Position numbers and translations under genes: made by a program. DNA of 46,746 nucleotides from a virus. Shown here piece after piece: positions 3,533 to 46,615 of the stretch. The stretch's first letter is position 1; each line of letters starts with the position of its first letter. The DNA is taken from positions 1 to 46,746 of IMG/VR virus record IMGVR_UViG_3300025280_000049. One strand, given 5' to 3'. The notes beneath the pieces are model-generated. The model did no database searches. It was not told the DNA's origin and saw nothing but the letters and a program-made list of their open reading frames with translations.

Positions 3533-3690
3533 AAGACTATCCTCTTCCCAACTGGCTCACCCTTTGTGAGCGTGGTGGTCAGTTCTATATTAGTGAGGAA
3601 GCCGAGCCCAAAGATACAGTGTATGTGGGAGACCTCAATGATTTTTATGAATTTGTGGAGGCGCTAAATAAACTAGCCGAGGAGATGTAA
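3529..3690 (+). CDS. Small acidic hypothetical protein
   Basis: A 53-residue acidic ORF beginning in an ATGA overlap with the previous gene and ending in a TAATG overlap with the primase-helicase start. A GGAGAG ribosome-binding site sits just before the ATG. I do not recognise the protein. Both overlaps and the ribosome-binding site support real translation. Confidence 0.6.
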   Translation: MKDYPLPNWLTLCERGGQFYISEEAEPKDTVYVGDLNDFYEFVEALNKLAEEM

Positions 3691-4664
3691 TGGGCCAATG
3701 CGTAATGAAGGTTCCTCATTCATGCGGAACTAGAGATGGTCTACAGGTATTTGAACAGGATGATGGGGAGATCACAGGCTATTGCTTTAGCTGTCACTCC
3801 TTCGTAAAAGACCCTTTAGGTGGTCAATCCGTAGAAGACTTCCCAGTTAAGAAACGGATTAAGAAAAGCCCTGAGGAAATCCAAGCAGAGATAGATGAGA
3901 TTAGTACCTATCCAGTGGACCACCTTCGTGACAGAAAGCTGCATAGAGAGGCTTTGGACTACTACGGTATTAAGCTCGGGTATAACGAGGAAGACGGTAC
4001 AACCATCAAGTTCATCTACTTTCCTTATTATGAAGGAACAACTCTCAAGTCTTACAAGGTTAAGCTAGTAGAGAATAAGAAGTTCTGGTCAGTAGGTGAT
4101 CAATCAGATGTAGATTTGTTTGGTTGGCAACAAGCTATTGCAACAGGTGCTAGACGCCTAATCATTACTGAGGGTGAGCTAGATGCACCAGCCCTCCTAG
4201 CGTGCCTTAAGAAGCACACTAAGACGGAGTATAGGGACAACATACCTGCTGTCGTATCTCTCCCCCACGGTTCTTCTAGCGCAGGTAGAGACCTAGCTAG
4301 ACTTGCCCCCAAGATTAGGAAGCACTTCAAGGAAGTTAGTTTCTGCTTTGATAATGATGCTGCTGGTGAGAAGGCAGTGGAAGAGGGCCTTAAGGTTCTC
4401 CCAGAAGCAACAGTCATCACTCTCCCCCTTAAAGATGCTGGTGACTGCTTGATGCAGGGGAGAGCTAAGGCTGCTCATGCTGCTGCTGTATTCAACGCTG
4501 GTAAGCCTAAGAACACTAGTCTAGTCAATGGCAGGGATTTACACGAGGCTGCCAAGACCCCGGCTAAGTGGGGCGTGTCGTGGCCTTGGAAGAAGCTCAC
4601 TGACTTGACTCGTGGTGTTCGTACTGGTGAGACATACTACCTTGGTGCTGCTCAGAAGATGGGT
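3690..4664 (+). CDS. Primase-helicase, exon 1 (T7 gp4-like), interrupted in the P-loop
   Basis: The first 325 residues of a bifunctional primase-helicase that unwinds the fork and lays RNA primers. An N-terminal zinc site is visible (Cys4, His10, Cys12, Cys32, Cys35). A TOPRIM primase domain follows, with ITEGELDA near residue 160 and SFCFDNDAAG near 218, then a linker and the start of the RecA-like helicase. The uninterrupted frame reads on to a stop at 4682, but the last residues WLQPM are intron sequence. Exon 1 ends at T4664, leaving the Walker A motif half written (AAQKMG, residues 320-325). Spliced to exon 2 the protein is 551 residues, near T7 gp4 (566). Confidence 0.93.
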
Positions 4665-5075
4665 TGGTTGCAGCCCATGTAAAACCGTGTGAATTCAGGG
4701 GAAGTCCAGAACGGATAATCCTGAGCGAAGCTGTTGGGAGGTTGGCTTAGAGGCAGCCATCCTTTAAAGAGTGAGGCGAAGCACCCAAGCTGCGAAATGC
4801 TGTAGAGTGTCGGGCCCTTGGTGGCACAAAACAGTGATGTGGCGAGGGTAAAATGTGGAAGTGTGGAGCCACCCCGTAACTGGTAAGGGCTCCTCCCTTT
4901 TTGGCGTAGAAGCACACCAACAGAACGTGCAACGACTATCCCGCAAGGGAGTAGGGCCAAGCGGTCCGAAGCGCACGGCACTCGTCAGAGTGATGATATA
5001 GTCTGGTCTGCATGGGAACATGCAGCAGTTCATAAGAGAACGGGGCAGGATTAGCGACCCTGCCTGAACATAACG
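4665..5075 (+). ncRNA. Group I self-splicing intron, 411 nt, without an ORF
   Basis: The boundaries restore the helicase P-loop exactly (MG | KS). P1 is clear: the exon end ATGGGT (4659-4664) pairs with the guide GCCCAT (4673-4678), giving the required U.G pair at the 5' splice site. The intron ends with G (5075). P7 pairs GACTAT (4934-4939) with ATAGTC (4998-5003). P8 is CCC-GCAA-GGG (4940-4949), a GNRA loop. P9-type hairpins are CTGCATG/CATGCAG around GGAA (5008-5025) and GGCAGG/CCTGCC (5044-5064). There is no internal homing endonuclease; the only open frames inside are reverse-strand shadows. Confidence 0.95.
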
Positions 5076-40580: not shown

Positions 40581-41501
40581 TCATAGAGTGATACCTGCCC
40601 ATGTCGCGCTTTTAGACTCAAGATCGTTACGTTCTTGTGTGCTCAACGAACGTGGCAATATAACGCCGCCATAAAAATTACCGCCAAAGTAAGAACCACC
40701 ACGGTAACGTCCAATAGATATATTTACCGCCGCGATTAATCCTTGGGTATTGGTATTACTCGCCATCATTGTGCCGTTAACGTAAATAGCGTGGCCGGAA
40801 GATGAAAGTTCCCCAATATAGACCCTGGGCTGTTCTTGATTAGGAATCTGTGCCGCCGGAATATCAAGGTCGTTATAATATTGTCCTAACCTGAAAACAT
40901 CATCTTCTGTAAAACCCATATGAATCACGTCGTTTTCTGAGCCACTTTCCCTGTAATATTCAGCATATATATGATCCCGAGTGTTTGCGACTGACTCATT
41001 GCCGCCCCTCGCTATCACCGCATGAAGTGTGTAATTAGGCTGTAAAAGTAACTGTTCGACGGGAATATTGAGATGATCGTCAATCCCATCCAGCACTAGC
41101 CAATGGTTTGTGCCATCGGACATATATACCGGTCTAGAAGCTGAAGTCTGCTGACTAGCGTGATAAGCATTACCGCTTTTATCTTGCATCAGTCCTACCG
41201 GATCACCAGACACCGTGACAGGGACTGTCCCAGCCGCATCTTGAAACAACGTACTCATATCGCTAGGATCATACCATGCACCCTGTTGTCCCTCAGAGAA
41301 TAAGTTTAAAGAAGAGAATCCATTTCCAAATTGCTCTATAAGAGCTTGCCATCCCCTCTTATTCTCATAGGTATACTTAGCCAACCTATCACTAATGGTT
41401 CCTTCATAACCTAAAGAACCTAGATAGTTATAGACTCTCTCATTAATAGAGAAACCTCCATATCCCTCTAAAGCTTTCCTTATACTATCATTTACCCTCA
41501 T
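40581..41501 (-). CDS. Tail protein with lectin-like (LamG/ConA) domain
   Basis: 306 residues: an N-terminal helical adaptor (about 1-70) and a concanavalin-like glucanase/lectin fold (about 75-306) with LVLDGIDDHLNIP, YTLHAVIARGG and AIYVNGTMMASNTN strands. It is the first gene of the leftward arm. Likely a second receptor-binding or adhesin component. The ATG follows AAGGAAGAA. Confidence 0.75.
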   Translation of the reverse strand: MRVNDSIRKALEGYGGFSINERVYNYLGSLGYEGTISDRLAKYTYENKRGWQALIEQFGNGFSSLNLFSEGQQGAWYDPSDMSTLFQDAAGTVPVTVSGDPVGLMQDKSGNAYHASQQTSASRPVYMSDGTNHWLVLDGIDDHLNIPVEQLLLQPNYTLHAVIARGGNESVANTRDHIYAEYYRESGSENDVIHMGFTEDDVFRLGQYYNDLDIPAAQIPNQEQPRVYIGELSSSGHAIYVNGTMMASNTNTQGLIAAVNISIGRYRGGSYFGGNFYGGVILPRSLSTQERNDLESKSATWAGITL

Positions 41502-41533
41502 CTATGTTCTTCCTTATGCGTTAAGGTAATTAC

Positions 41534-41617
41534 GCCCCGGAGGGGCACATATACTAGAAACGTGTGTTAGCGAAGCTAACGTATAGGGGCTTACGCAGCG
41601 AAGCTGCACATATACTA
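41534..41617. repeat. Three tandem triloop mini-hairpins with 12-bp direct repeats
   Basis: GCCCC-GGA-GGGGC (41534-41546), GTTAGC-GAA-GCTAAC (41566-41580) and GCAGC-GAA-GCTGC (41595-41607). The second and third contain the exceptionally stable GCGAAGC mini-hairpin core. GCACATATACTA follows the first (41545-41556) and third (41606-41617) hairpins. Confidence 0.8.
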
Positions 41618-41655
41618 ATCAATGTGGTGTAGGAACTATCTGGGGCTATTACTTG

Positions 41656-41708
41656 GTAGTTTATGTGAGAAAATATTAAGGAAGCAGTAATATTGCTTAG
41701 AAAATATT
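41656..41708 (+). repeat. Relic copies of the early leader motif
   Basis: GTAGTTTATGT then AGAAAATATTAAGGA (41668-41682), and a second AGAAAATATTAAGG (41699-41712) followed only by an ATG-CAC-TAA minigene. The same AGAAAATATT plus ribosome-binding site precedes the genes at 43364 and 46616. Probably remains of deleted early genes. Confidence 0.65.
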
Positions 41709-41783
41709 AAGGGGCTATGCACTAAATAGAACCCCTGGGTACACCCCCTTGCCCACCCCCTAGACATTTATTCATAGTTTTCT

Positions 41784-41835
41784 AAAGGTTAGGCTCCTAA
41801 TACGTTGCTTCGCAACACTTACAAGGCTAACCTTT
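41784..41835. other. Two-level hairpin with GTTGC-TTC-GCAAC at its apex side
   Basis: AAAGGTTAG (41784-41792) pairs with CTAACCTTT (41827-41835) over nine bases and encloses GTTGC-TTC-GCAAC (41804-41816), the complement of the GCGAAGC mini-hairpin. AAGGCTA/TAGCCTT offers an alternative pairing followed by a T-rich tract, so it may act as a terminator. Confidence 0.65.
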
Positions 41836-42153
41836 AGCCTTGTCTTTATTCTTTGGGTAATAATTAGCAGCCTTACACTCATTACCATTCGTTCAGGCAT
41901 GCACAACCTATGCCAAAGGCATGTTTCTTTAGTATAATCAACGCCTTGCGGCGCACTTGCTCTTGCTATAGATAGTAGGCCCTAGCTTAGCTTGCTAATT
42001 ATATATATTCTACTGGTTAGCCTGCTATTCTAGGCGCTACTACTTATGCTATTCCATGCCTTGCCTTGTTACTTGCTGTTACATTTCTATCCTTGCTTTA
42101 TCCCTTGTTATGTCCCATAGTGTATATACACCAACGGCAACGAGGATAAAGAC

Positions 42154-42324
42154 ATGAAAATTACCGCACCTGGGGGCTGGTCGAAGCGCGGTCCTGAACA
42201 GGGATATATCATAACAAAAGACGAATTCGATAAAGCAAGCGAATATTGGCAGCATGTCATCCTTGAAGCTGGTGGAATCTTAAGCATTAACGAATACATG
42301 AAGATGAGGACCAAAGGTTATTGA
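42154..42324 (+). CDS. Small hypothetical protein, first rightward early gene
   Basis: A 56-residue ORF (MKITAPGGWSKRGPEQGYIITK...) with a GAGGA ribosome-binding site at normal distance and coding-like composition. It is followed at once by the ORF-free structured region. Unrecognised; early small phage proteins often bind host factors. Confidence 0.7.
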   Translation: MKITAPGGWSKRGPEQGYIITKDEFDKASEYWQHVILEAGGILSINEYMKMRTKGY

Positions 42325-42410
42325 CCAAGGCGAAACGCTAGCCTACACTGGTTAGCGTCTGGATGGGATAGCTCCCTATTCACTGATGAGCCAAGCTAAG
42401 CAAGAAACAG

Positions 42411-42445
42411 TTTGACAAGTTAGGTAAGGCAAGCTACCTTGAAAG
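42411..42445 (+). repeat. Internal RNA module, copy 1
   Basis: TTTGACAAG, three bases, then A-GGTA-8-TACC-T hairpin, then TGAAAG. It aligns over 35 bases without gaps to 42646-42680. Confidence 0.75.
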
Positions 42446-42645
42446 ACAAGGCAACACAAAGCGGGACAGTCAAAGATAAAGACGTTAAAACTCTAGTCTG
42501 CAAAGTGTTTGTTAGTTATCCGCTCATTGCGCCCTGACTAACTGGCCTTGAGAAGAAAGTGAAGAAAGTGTAAGATTGAAAGACACGTTGGGAAACGTCA
42601 CGATCTACCAAAGCAACAAGGTGGACTACAGTCTAAGCAATAATG

Positions 42646-42680
42646 TTTGACAAGGCTGGTATCCTAAACTACCATGGAAG
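42646..42680 (+). repeat. Internal RNA module, copy 2
   Basis: TTTGACAAG, then a T-GGTA-8-TACC-A hairpin, then TGGAAG. The closing base pair is T-A here and A-T in copy 1, so the stem is kept by a paired change. Confidence 0.75.
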
Positions 42681-43282
42681 TGTAAGACGAGTAACGGATG
42701 GCCTCCGAGTTTGAAGACTAAAAGGCCCATGCGATAAATAAGCGTGACAAGGTGAAGTAGAGGCGAGTCTACGCCAATGCTAAGCCGACCAATAGGTATA
42801 AGTGATAGTGTTTAGTGTACTAGGCTACGCAAATACACTATGGATTACGGACCCTATGATTTGGTTGGAATGGTACAAGCGTACAGTCTGGGGAGTCAGA
42901 CGCAAGCTAGACTACAGGTATTGACTGCGAGTCGGTACAATTACAGCCTTGGCACGGTGAACATTGCGTGACATGATTAGCGAAGGTTTGAAAACCTTGC
43001 CCACTTATTAGTGCGCTTCATCGCTAGTCCTATAGTCTGGGGGACCATGCCGACCGTGCGAACCCAGACGTTAAACCAAGGCCCTTGGGACTATCGGGGA
43101 CAATTCGGTTTTTGTCTCTATCCTAAGTCACTGGATTCAAAGACTCGGATTGTCTCACGTTCCATAGGGTAACGCTACTAGACAAGCCCTGAGTCTAGCT
43201 GGTAGCGTCCTAAGCCACGTTGATTGAACCATCGGAACCAATTAGCATTATGGAATAGGGCGCTGCTACAGGTAGGCTAAGC

Positions 43283-43363
43283 GTAGTTTTGTAAGTTACA
43301 AACGCAGTTTTGTAATGAGCCCTACCACAATTTTCCCTAGAAAATATTGTTGGAGATTAAACT
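43283..43363 (+). promoter_or_regulatory. Early promoter/leader element, copy A
   Basis: 81 bases aligned almost without gaps to 46536-46615. It has a TTTGTAAGTTACAAA dyad (43288-43302) overlapping a weak -35 (TTGTAA), a 16-base spacer, a -10-like TGTAAT (43311-43316), then AGAAAATATT (43339-43348) and TTGGAGA as ribosome-binding site. TAGGGC (43256-43261) can pair with GCCCTA (43319-43324). Reads as a host-type promoter with an operator. Confidence 0.65.
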
Positions 43364-43960
43364 ATGACCATTTCCTATGAAGCGCTGATTGAATCCATTA
43401 GCCGTGTCAAACAATCCGAGCGAGTAACCAAGTATGAATTGGGACTGCTCTCCCGTGACATCCTGTCCTACATGCTCGAAAGCGAGGACGTACGCCCAGT
43501 TAATGTCTTGCTGGGGACTAGTGAAGATGATTCTTTTGTCCTGACTCCTGTAAACTGGCGCATTGCTGCCCAATACTTTAAGCACTTCTTGCCGTTCTCT
43601 TCCAACTATGATGAAGTGAAGGCCAACGTCGAGAAAGGCGAAGGCAACCGCGAGCCCCTCGTATTCGGCAAGAAACAGAAACGCAAATGGGACAAAAAGT
43701 CTCAAGAGATTGCTGCATTCCTCGAAGATGAGGACAATACTATTTGGACTTGGAGTAAGAATGTCGAGATCAAGGCACAACCAGTAGACTATGCCAAGAA
43801 AGTGACTCAGGCTGTCAAAGCTGCCGCCAATCCTGAAAAGGGCGACATGACAGCGGCTGAAATTCTTGCCGCCATACTTGAAGCTGAGGGCATGAGCATG
43901 GGACAAATCATTGAAGCTGTACATGCCATGCATGAGCAAGAACAGCAAGAAGCTGCATAA
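43364..43960 (+). CDS. Early hypothetical protein (198 aa)
   Basis: A 198-residue acidic protein behind leader copy A, with a clear TTGGAGA ribosome-binding site. The N-terminal half is mixed alpha/beta, a basic patch KKQKRKWDKK lies near residue 105, and the C-terminus (about 160-198) is an acidic helix rich in Met, Glu and Ala. No family recognised. Being the first sizeable gene after the early promoter, it may target a host function. Confidence 0.78.
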   Translation: MTISYEALIESISRVKQSERVTKYELGLLSRDILSYMLESEDVRPVNVLLGTSEDDSFVLTPVNWRIAAQYFKHFLPFSSNYDEVKANVEKGEGNREPLVFGKKQKRKWDKKSQEIAAFLEDEDNTIWTWSKNVEIKAQPVDYAKKVTQAVKAAANPEKGDMTAAEILAAILEAEGMSMGQIIEAVHAMHEQEQQEAA

Positions 43961-43969
43961 GCTCTCATC

Positions 43970-44018
43970 TAAGGCATTCTAGGCGTAGGTCTGTACGTTG
44001 GTATAGGTCTATGCCTTA
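43970..44018 (+). other. Long-stem hairpin in early 3' UTR
   Basis: TAAGGCAT (43970-43977) pairs perfectly with ATGCCTTA (44011-44018). The 33-base interior contains TAGGTCT twice. There is no T-tract, so it is more likely an RNA processing or stability element than a terminator. Confidence 0.5.
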
Positions 44019-44061
44019 GAACGTCTCACAATGTCTGTGTGAACCATGTAAGGGGTGTATT

Positions 44062-44166
44062 ATGTATACCCATGCAAACTGTATTCCGTTCGTTTGTTCT
44101 ATTGACAAGTATACTAGCCTGACATGTATGTTCATGTTGGCTAATCTAATTGGGGATGAGATATGA
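44062..44166 (+). CDS. Small cysteine-containing hypothetical protein
   Basis: A 34-residue ORF with an AAGGGG ribosome-binding site, overlapping the next start in an ATGA arrangement. The second half is hydrophobic. Supported by signals only; unrecognised. Confidence 0.45.
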   Translation: MYTHANCIPFVCSIDKYTSLTCMFMLANLIGDEI

Positions 44167-44240
44167 TTATCTACCATCCATTACTAGCTGTATTCGTAGG
44201 ACAATGTACATTCTGGGGCATTGTCCTTTATATTATCTAA
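44163..44240 (+). CDS. Tiny hydrophobic membrane peptide
   Basis: A 25-residue ORF with a GGGGATGAG ribosome-binding site, almost entirely hydrophobic (one membrane span, LLAVFVGQ ... FWGIVLYII). Coupled to the upstream ORF through ATGA. Similar mini membrane proteins occur in early regions of T7-like phages. Confidence 0.5.
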   Translation: MIIYHPLLAVFVGQCTFWGIVLYII

Positions 44241-44327
44241 ACCTTTCCGCCTCGTTAGCTCAACTCAAATACAGTTGAATCTTACTCAAGGGTATGTTTT
44301 TGCATTGTTTCATATAATACCTTTATT

Positions 44328-44400
44328 GCCCCGCGTGCTGGATGCACAGCAGAGTCTTCTAAACTTAGCTTTCCGAGTTCGATTCTCGGGCGGGGTACCA
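44328..44400 (+). tRNA. tRNA-Arg(UCU)-like gene with reduced D arm
   Basis: A 73-nt cloverleaf with acceptor GCCCCGC/GCGGGGT (one G.U), a perfect T arm CCGAG-TTCGATT-CTCGG and an encoded CCA end. The anticodon loop is CTTCTAA, anticodon TCT at 44358-44360, for AGA/AGG arginine codons, which are common in this phage. Odd points: the D loop has only six bases (GATGCA) and no GG, position 8 is G, and the anticodon stem has an A-A mismatch. It may be a partly degenerate but functional tRNA. A TATAAT at 44313-44318 lies ten bases upstream. Confidence 0.7.
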
Positions 44401-44418
44401 ACAACAAACAGGTGCCCT

Positions 44419-44556
44419 ATGTATGAGAAATATAGCGGTGCAATAGACCAATGTGTAACCAACTGTTCTACTGATTGGCTACCGGGACTGTTAACCTTCC
44501 TCGTACTATGGGGAATCTGTTTTTTGTATAAAATTGTTATTGACTTGATTAACTAG
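44419..44556 (+). CDS. Small single-span membrane protein
   Basis: 45 residues from ATG 44419 with AGGTG ahead. A frame extension upstream would run through the tRNA and is rejected. One membrane span (about 23-43, LPGLLTFLVLWGICFLYKIVI), two cysteines before it. Unknown function. Confidence 0.6.
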   Translation: MYEKYSGAIDQCVTNCSTDWLPGLLTFLVLWGICFLYKIVIDLIN

Positions 44557-44971: not shown

Positions 44972-45169
44972 ATGATATGGTTCATATATAAGAATGATGG
45001 TGGATTCCCTGTGGTGAAACATCCTCATCATCCTGACAACTATGCGCTATTCCATCAGTCGGCATTGTATGAAACCGATAGTTGGTGGAGAGAAAGGTTA
45101 ACAGACGGTATTTCGTACCATAAACGTAGTATAAACGGTTTAGATTTTGTAAGGACAATACATACATGA
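44972..45169 (+). CDS. Small hypothetical protein
   Basis: A 65-residue, aromatic and His-rich protein (MIWFIYKNDGGFPVVKHPHHPDN...). The end overlaps the cyclotransferase-like start in ATGA. Unrecognised. Confidence 0.6.
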   Translation: MIWFIYKNDGGFPVVKHPHHPDNYALFHQSALYETDSWWRERLTDGISYHKRSINGLDFVRTIHT

Positions 45170-45534
45170 ACCTAGTGTTTGTATACGGCAGCCTAAAGAA
45201 AGGATTTCATAACCATCGGATACTCGAACGCTCTGAATGTGTAGGGCGTGGGAGTGTGGACAATGCGAACCTTTATAGCTTGGGTAGTTTTCCTGCTCTT
45301 GTTAATGGAGGCGGTGTGGTCAAGGGTGAGGTATATGAGGCGGATGAAGAAACAATGTCACGTCTCGACACGCTCGAAGGTCACCCCAACTTCTACCGTA
45401 GGGAAACACACCTAGTAGAAATGAATGGTATGCAAGGTAAGCTGCCATGCCATGTATATATCTATCAAGGTAGGGTGAGAGACGAGTCTCATATCCCCTC
45501 AGGAGATTGGAGTCATGAACACTTACGCTCATAA
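45166..45534 (+). CDS. Gamma-glutamyl(amine) cyclotransferase-like protein (GGCT/AIG2)
   Basis: A 122-residue protein of the GGCT fold: the N-terminal VFVYGSLKKG (Tyr7-Gly8-Ser9-Leu10) forms the substrate-binding loop, VKGEVYEAD the central strand, and LDTLEGHPNFYRRE carries the catalytic glutamate region. The family releases 5-oxoproline from gamma-glutamyl amines or peptides. Its presence in the same genome as an amidoligase and an ATP-grasp ligase suggests that it removes or edits gamma-glutamyl linkages, an inference only. Confidence 0.85.
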   Translation: MNLVFVYGSLKKGFHNHRILERSECVGRGSVDNANLYSLGSFPALVNGGGVVKGEVYEADEETMSRLDTLEGHPNFYRRETHLVEMNGMQGKLPCHVYIYQGRVRDESHIPSGDWSHEHLRS

Positions 45535-46314: not shown

Positions 46315-46539
46315 ATGTTTCTCTATATGTTGAACTTCATGCGTCTCTATTGGCGTACCCTAAAGGGTTCCTGCTCTGAAGTGAGACGCTTACGTGAACA
46401 AGTGCAAGTCCTTGAATCAGCGCTAGAAGTACATAATTTTGGGCGTAAGCCTATTGTGCATCAAGAGACTGATGGGTATACGTATGTGTATGAGTGTGTA
46501 GGTAGGGTATTAACTCCACATTGGGCAGACCATAGGTAG
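46315..46539 (+). CDS. Small protein with coiled coil
   Basis: A 74-residue ORF: an N-terminal hydrophobic/aromatic segment (MFLYMLNFMRLYW), then a short coiled coil (SEVRRLREQVQVLESALEV) and a beta-like tail. The end touches leader copy B. Unrecognised. Confidence 0.65.
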   Translation: MFLYMLNFMRLYWRTLKGSCSEVRRLREQVQVLESALEVHNFGRKPIVHQETDGYTYVYECVGRVLTPHWADHR

Positions 46540-46615
46540 TTATGTAAGTTGCATAACAGAGTTATGTAATGAGTTCTAGCTGGATTTCCTTGAGAAAATA
46601 TTTCGGAGAATCAAA
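46536..46615 (+). promoter_or_regulatory. Early promoter/leader element, copy B
   Basis: 80 bases homologous to 43283-43363: GTTATGTAAGTTGCATAAC dyad (46539-46557), -10-like TGTAAT (46565-46570), AGAAAATATT (46593-46602), CGGAGA ribosome-binding site. AACTC (46512-46516) can pair with GAGTT, in the place where copy A has TAGGGC/GCCCTA. Confidence 0.65.

Follow-up and report, generated by a model that had tools for sequence, protein, structure and literature searches.

The divergent hub of the viral genome analyzed here (a 46,746-bp IMG/VR virus record, referred to as the window) encodes on its plus strand a structured RNA with a predicted length of ~600 nt, and this RNA structure is under selection. 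It is almost certain that the hub harbors a structured functional RNA. The flanking gene and the layout of the hub place the closest relatives of this virus among the Zobellviridae podophages. The hub is a composite of several modules, which follow each other from 5′ to 3′ between the left-facing and right-facing genes:

42,325-43,282: divergent hub, flanked by left-facing genes (ending near 41,501) and right-facing early genes (from 43,364)
42,154-42,324, plus strand: 56-aa ORF, with its stop codon 3 nt before the hammerhead
42,328-42,401, plus strand: type II hammerhead ribozyme (Rfam RF02276, 33.4 bits, E 3e-4)
42,412-42,440, plus strand: promoter P1, TTGACA-17-TACCTT, predicted start ~42,447
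42,461-42,501, plus strand: pseudoknotted motif of ~40 nt, candidate put-like element
42,511-42,542, plus strand: second hairpin, 3′ of the motif, read from the sequence
42,548-42,576, plus strand: promoter P2, TTGAGA-17-TAAGAT
42,647-42,675, plus strand: promoter P3, TTGACA-17-TACCAT, predicted start ~42,682
42,682-43,280, plus strand: large structured RNA, predicted extent
43,283-43,350, plus strand: 5′-UTR element
43,364-43,960, plus strand: first early gene (198-aa protein)
44,328-44,400: tRNA-Arg(UCU)

RNA structure on the plus strand is under selection

Three other IMG/VR contigs (L020, L022, and L025) carry homologues of the large RNA at the same location (66-76% identity), flanked by like elements and lying ahead of the same gene. 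Identity between the window and L025 is 66% over 1 kb, including the pseudoknotted motif, and is about 75% over 165-240 nt for L022 and L020. The first-pass annotation, made from the window alone, had described ~1 kb devoid of any convincing ORF, and this description holds: the longest open stretch on the plus strand of 42,325-43,363 spans 63 codons and forms no plausible gene, and no reading frame is conserved across the homologues, whose open frames do not correspond. The many complementary stems reported at the same time go far beyond chance, with the 42,682-43,300 segment folding at -219.7 kcal/mol (z = -4.5) and none of 20 shuffles reaching as low an energy. The homologous region of L025 also has a z-score of -4.5. 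For the 600 nt upstream of the gene at 43,364, the z-score is -7.5, as compared to -0.65 for the coding sequence behind.

RNAalifold applied to the four sequences gave 137 pairs, 60 of which include at least one double change. Shuffling of alignment columns within classes of conservation and gaps, with RIBOSUM scoring, gave z = -12 in one run and -13 in another for the fold of the plus strand, against -7 for the reverse strand, indicating that the plus strand is the functional one. Moreover, 41 pairs are canonical in all four sequences and show double changes, while 150 shuffles gave 14 ± 3 such pairs and a maximum of 20. Leave-one-out structures kept 75-87% of their pairs in the tested sequence versus ~39% for slid controls. 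Letter pairs that were new in the left-out sequence were canonical in ~39-56% of cases, near the chance level of ~38%, and some helices in the variable stretches are therefore wrong. With covariation present and no reading frame conserved, the homologues agree with the earlier proposal of a giant ornate noncoding RNA. Incidental folding of a degenerate gene, an intron, or a repeat has a negligible probability; a group I intron does exist elsewhere in this genome, but such an origin is contradicted by the 41 all-canonical double-change pairs (shuffle maximum 20), by strand-specific covariation, by the lack of a conserved frame, and by the group I and group II intron models, which found no match on the large-RNA stretch.

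Covarying pairs extend from 42,697 to 43,278. The following parts of the large RNA were distinguished:

42,728-42,970, plus strand: 5′ domain, a long multi-helix arm (domain z = -9.4)
43,035-43,083, plus strand: central element AUAGUC...CAGACGUUAAAC with an invariant GACGUUAAAC (domain z = -4.5)
43,168-43,278, plus strand: 3′ domain, a hairpin with an AAGCYCUGA-like loop plus the stem 43,192-43,212/43,256-43,278 (z = -7.2)

Among the best helices are 42,918-42,938, 43,192-43,212/43,256-43,278, and 43,219-43,246, in which 8/10, 12/19, and 7/8 pairs are double-changed, respectively. The nested stem at 42,789-42,864 pointed out in the first pass is real and conserved in the homologues. The long-range contact then suggested between GCACGG (42,952-42,957) and CCGTGC (43,054-43,059) fared differently: both segments are found at these positions, but their pairing is rejected, with 6/6 pairs broken in L025 and 3/6 in L020, and the segments sit instead in the covarying helices 42,743-42,748/42,951-42,956 and 43,043-43,049/43,055-43,061. 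As for the proposed three-way junction at 42,975-43,029, it includes a segment of ~20 nt specific to the window, which is a gap in the three homologues.

The 5′ end of the large RNA is best placed at the start of P3 (~42,682), a promoter that sits at the 5′ edge of the RNA in each of the four homologues. Only the part of the hub from ~42,682 onward is assigned to the large RNA; the hammerhead, the promoters, and the put-like motif precede it, so that the interval annotated in the first pass is composite. On the other side, the 43,283-43,350 element recurs at 46,536-46,602 before another early gene, so that the 3′ end is best put near 43,280. This element ends in GAAAATATT, could form two mutually exclusive hairpins, and probably serves as the separate leader of a gene. 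Between the large RNA and the gene at 43,364, no intrinsic terminator was found. In all homologues, this gene adjoins the 3′ side of the large RNA. Relatives of its 198-aa product occur in 15 phage records, most of them from Zobellviridae, and the structure predicted for the protein is a poor model (pLDDT 58).

To our knowledge, giant structured phage RNAs fall into very few described classes, none with an understood function. Rfam models gave no meaningful match at E≤10 on 42,640-43,363, and none but the hammerhead at E≤5 on 41,500-44,500. GOLLD and ROOL models also failed to match L020, L022, and L025 at E≤1, and a blastn search of phages and plasmids with the large RNA returned no matches. 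The Rfam searches yielded no membership in GOLLD, ROOL, OLE, intron, or riboswitch families; since nothing in Rfam 15 matches the large RNA, it apparently represents a new family. Of the two options left by the first-pass annotation, a GOLLD/ROOL relative or a new class, the sequence comparisons lean toward the latter. In the literature covered, from which subscription journals were largely absent, we found no account of a noncoding Zobellviridae RNA.

At the level of description, the large RNA does resemble both GOLLD and ROOL, phage RNAs that often occur near tRNA islands and assemble into homo-oligomeric cages, a 14-mer in the case of GOLLD (PMC12286853). GOLLD is likewise phage-encoded, over 600 nt long, ornate, located near a tRNA gene, and of unknown function, and ROOL is likewise phage-encoded, ornate, and of similar length. 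Unlike GOLLD, the large RNA immediately precedes the first early gene, is associated with sigma70 promoters, and has a hammerhead and a candidate put-like element on its 5′ side; unlike ROOL, a widespread family, it has four known copies and another gene neighborhood. Covariance-model tests recognize it as a member of neither. It is very improbable that the large RNA is a highly diverged GOLLD or ROOL. The kind of genome, the size, and the ornate folding are alike, and the tRNA gene announced 1.1 kb downstream is indeed there, as would suit two families often found near tRNA islands (PMC12286853). However, no match of useful score was obtained in the window and none in the homologues scanned, and the nearby tRNA is one tRNA-Arg rather than an island. 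Single tRNAs also occur near the hubs of L020, L142, and L144.

A ribozyme, promoters, and a covarying pseudoknot precede the large RNA

The hammerhead was the sole relevant match to the hub in a relaxed-threshold Rfam scan, its 33.4 bits falling slightly under the RF02276 gathering score of 37. In the fold, its core is complete (GAAA, GUC, and CUGAUGA, with stem II open), and cleavage is predicted from the sequence to occur between 42,359 and 42,360. Its loop I (UAGCU) is able to pair with AGCUA located 3′ of stem II, a pseudoknot that constitutes the tertiary contact of natural type II hammerheads (PMC3088659). The window copy shares with RF02276 its catalytic core, the order of its stems, and the pseudoknot between loop I and the tail, and differs by its location, directly behind a small gene and ahead of a giant RNA. 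A syntenic hammerhead with different stems is present in L025, where it scores above the gathering threshold (37.3 bits), while the Rfam scan found none in L020 or L022; the ribozyme was found in only two of the four large-RNA members. The 56-aa ORF that precedes it in the window has no family match and no detectable resemblance to the ORF located ahead of the hammerhead in L025.

Promoters P1 to P3 were identified as sequence matches to sigma70-like promoters. The small motif located between P1 and P2 is composed of three helices, all on the plus strand and all showing covariation:

42,461-42,465/42,497-42,501, plus strand: outer stem
42,469-42,471/42,481-42,483, plus strand: GUC/GAC stem
42,474-42,475/42,491-42,492, plus strand: pseudoknot pairs, with an A-rich strand between

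Blastn detected ~30-40 nt around 42,466-42,500 in noncoding DNA of Zobellviridae, a Thalassavirus (Demerecviridae), and Krylovirinae (Autographiviridae). Together with pattern scans of viral contigs, this search yielded 32 distinct copies from three phage families, with the consensus CAGUCAADGAUAAAGACGUUAAAACHC and a nearly invariant core. The outer stem shows double changes at all 8 pairs, the GUC/GAC stem is swapped to GUG/CAC in three aligned phages, and a pair of the pseudoknot, whose core comprises only two base pairs, occurs as GC, AU, and UA. L145, misaligned in the motif alignment, seems when read by eye to have C-G and A-U at the pseudoknot. None of 500 shuffles reached the covariation score of the motif, and an offset-tolerant test gave a mean stem score of 5.2 versus 3.1 for 2,000 shuffles (maximum 3.84). 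A relaxed pattern retrieved L124, L131, and L132, which look real and show the GUG/CAC exchange; most other matches to this pattern lie in AT-rich coding sequence and were attributed to chance, as were those in the genome contigs L034 and L035, which are isolated and devoid of the surrounding layout. No Rfam 15 family matches the motif.

A sigma70-like promoter lies upstream of 28/32 copies (10% at random positions) and downstream of 31/32 copies (15% at random positions), and the spacing between the -10 element and the motif core is most often 26-31 nt. The motif is hence a promoter-proximal RNA element. By inspection, without formal counting of pairs, most homologues also have a hairpin at the position of the second hairpin. 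This compact, strongly covarying RNA common to unrelated phages is the more general discovery, and the phages that carry it include Klebsiella, Vibrio, and Pseudomonas phages existing as isolates.

What the motif does may be read in two ways. In position and layout, it resembles the put element of phage HK022, whose putRNA, ~70 nt with two stem-loops and an internal triplex, is located just downstream of PL and acts directly on RNA polymerase (PMC9378689). Both putL/putR and the motif lie just past a host-type early promoter. Two hairpins in ~75 nt would be a further common trait, the first stem of the motif being covarying and the second hairpin seen by inspection; the A-rich strand could form a triplex, and the motif would, by analogy, act without a phage protein. 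The motif differs in that a covarying H-type pseudoknot makes up its first hairpin, the word pseudoknot being absent from the cited account of putRNA (PMC9378689), and in that a second promoter follows. We consider put-like action of the motif to be an evenly balanced proposition. RNA alone reprogramming host polymerase at the motif would be directly testable with purified enzyme.

Somewhat less plausible is that the motif, rather than acting on polymerase, is bound by a host or phage protein, stabilizes the 5′ end, or senses a ligand. The near invariance of its GAUAAA loop and GUUAAAAC strand is what a specific binding pocket would typically show, and its H-type pseudoknot and A-rich strand are, in our estimation, reminiscent of preQ1-I-like aptamers. 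However, the strict place of the motif between two sigma70 promoters in unrelated families fits an action on transcription better than the sensing of a metabolite, and nothing resembling an expression platform, for instance a terminator, is seen after the motif of the window.

Structured hubs in other Zobellviridae

A covariance model (R1) built from the core of the 5′ domain (42,766-42,907) recovered only the four members among the 97 sources searched. Likewise, when the core model was applied to the longer of 80 loci with terminase relatives, it returned only the known four, and four further scans of viral contigs found no members beyond the four full ones and one partial. This partial member, L141, has a large-RNA 3′ domain recognizable by eye, with a weak profile match (E 0.88), and its downstream protein is 49% identical. 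The degenerate pattern AAGCGTACANNNTGGGNAGTNNG matched L116 and L117, both in coding sequence and attributed to chance, and two further degenerate patterns gave only chance matches, which the covariance model rejected.

The 600 nt preceding the 198-aa gene are unusually stable in other hubs as well, with z-scores of -7.3 (L001), -5.9 (L144), -5.4 (L146), and -4.3 (L009), while the coding stretches after these hubs are near zero in most. Three Klebsiella-phage hubs lacking any match to the large RNA of the window gave an alignment z-score of -6. In addition, the octamer CCTAGTTA was found in 6/16 hubs (L005, L008, L020, L022, L141, and L149) compared with 1% of control segments, and probably corresponds to a loop conserved among more distant hub RNAs. 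These observations suggest that Zobellviridae possess a general class of fast-diverging structured leader RNAs. Adding the large RNA and the motif to covariance-model libraries would make it possible to find them in phage genomes whose hubs are now left blank.

A boxA-like TCTTTAACAAT, reminiscent of the rRNA leader boxA of NusB/NusE antitermination, follows sigma70-like promoters in L003, L005, L008, L141, L142, L144, and L148, with up to three per hub. It is frequent in related hubs without the large-RNA core. Neither the window nor any of its three close relatives contains it. Its presence in related hubs fits a need for antitermination.

A candidate early-operon leader and the possible release of a large RNA

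Our preferred reading, to which we assign a probability of about 0.6, is that the hub is an early-operon leader in which a put-like RNA lets polymerase through and from which the large RNA is cut out as a stable product. Its first component, transcription of the hub as an early-operon leader, is highly probable. Host RNA polymerase would start at the tandem sigma70 promoters P1-P3, and the pseudoknot and second hairpin would act in cis on the elongating enzyme in the manner of HK022 putRNA, suppressing pausing and termination so that polymerase could pass the downstream promoters and the untranslated leader. Without such protection, Rho would be expected to attack this long untranslated stretch. 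The 5′ end of the large RNA could then be produced by the hammerhead, cutting read-through transcripts at 42,359/42,360, or by initiation at P3, and its 3′ side would be cut near 43,280, beside the repeated 5′-UTR element. The released molecule might act in trans as a stable RNA, as GOLLD and ROOL may do.

The odds that the large RNA is a separate trans-acting molecule, as opposed to a purely cis-acting leader, are even in our estimation. The main rival, a purely cis leader, falls somewhat short of this; its large fold would shield the early mRNA, regulate how the 198-aa protein is translated, or set the timing of early expression. In its favor, the same gene directly follows the large RNA in all four homologues as well as in L141, structured hubs before the 198-aa gene are widespread in Zobellviridae, and the lack of a terminator before the gene at 43,364 is no less compatible with a cis leader than with a free RNA. 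However, an element of ~600 nt whose conserved loops lie far from the start codon would be unusually large for a translational regulator, and the repetition of the 5′-UTR element (43,283-43,350 and 46,536-46,602) points to a separate module as the leader of the gene itself. A still broader version of the released-RNA reading is unlikely as a whole: Zobellviridae hubs would encode a fast-evolving superfamily of giant leader RNAs, with the present RNA as its best-resolved branch, a new protein-free pseudoknot RNA common to at least three phage families would modify host polymerase, and the large RNA would be trans-acting and possibly multimeric. Located at the start of an early operon together with promoters, a ribozyme, and a neighboring gene, the large RNA offers a defined place to seek function and a new case, open to testing, in which phages would employ RNA itself as machinery.

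Several other elements of the genome were observed. On the far side of the hub, the stretch 41,701-41,760 is matched at 83% identity by both Vibrio phages 1.235.O and 1.253.O at their genome ends, is partly common to L020, L022, and L029, and is perhaps a terminal or packaging element. Just past the late gene cluster, there is a 38-nt direct repeat (74%; 41,519-41,556 and 41,580-41,617) with G+C-rich hairpins. The early region encodes a gamma-glutamyl cyclotransferase-like protein on the plus strand (45,166-45,534; PF06094, E 3e-30). Finally, the group I intron (4,597-5,025, plus strand; Rfam RF00028, 64.8 bits) lies at the end of the primase/helicase ORF (3,690-4,682) and probably interrupts this gene.
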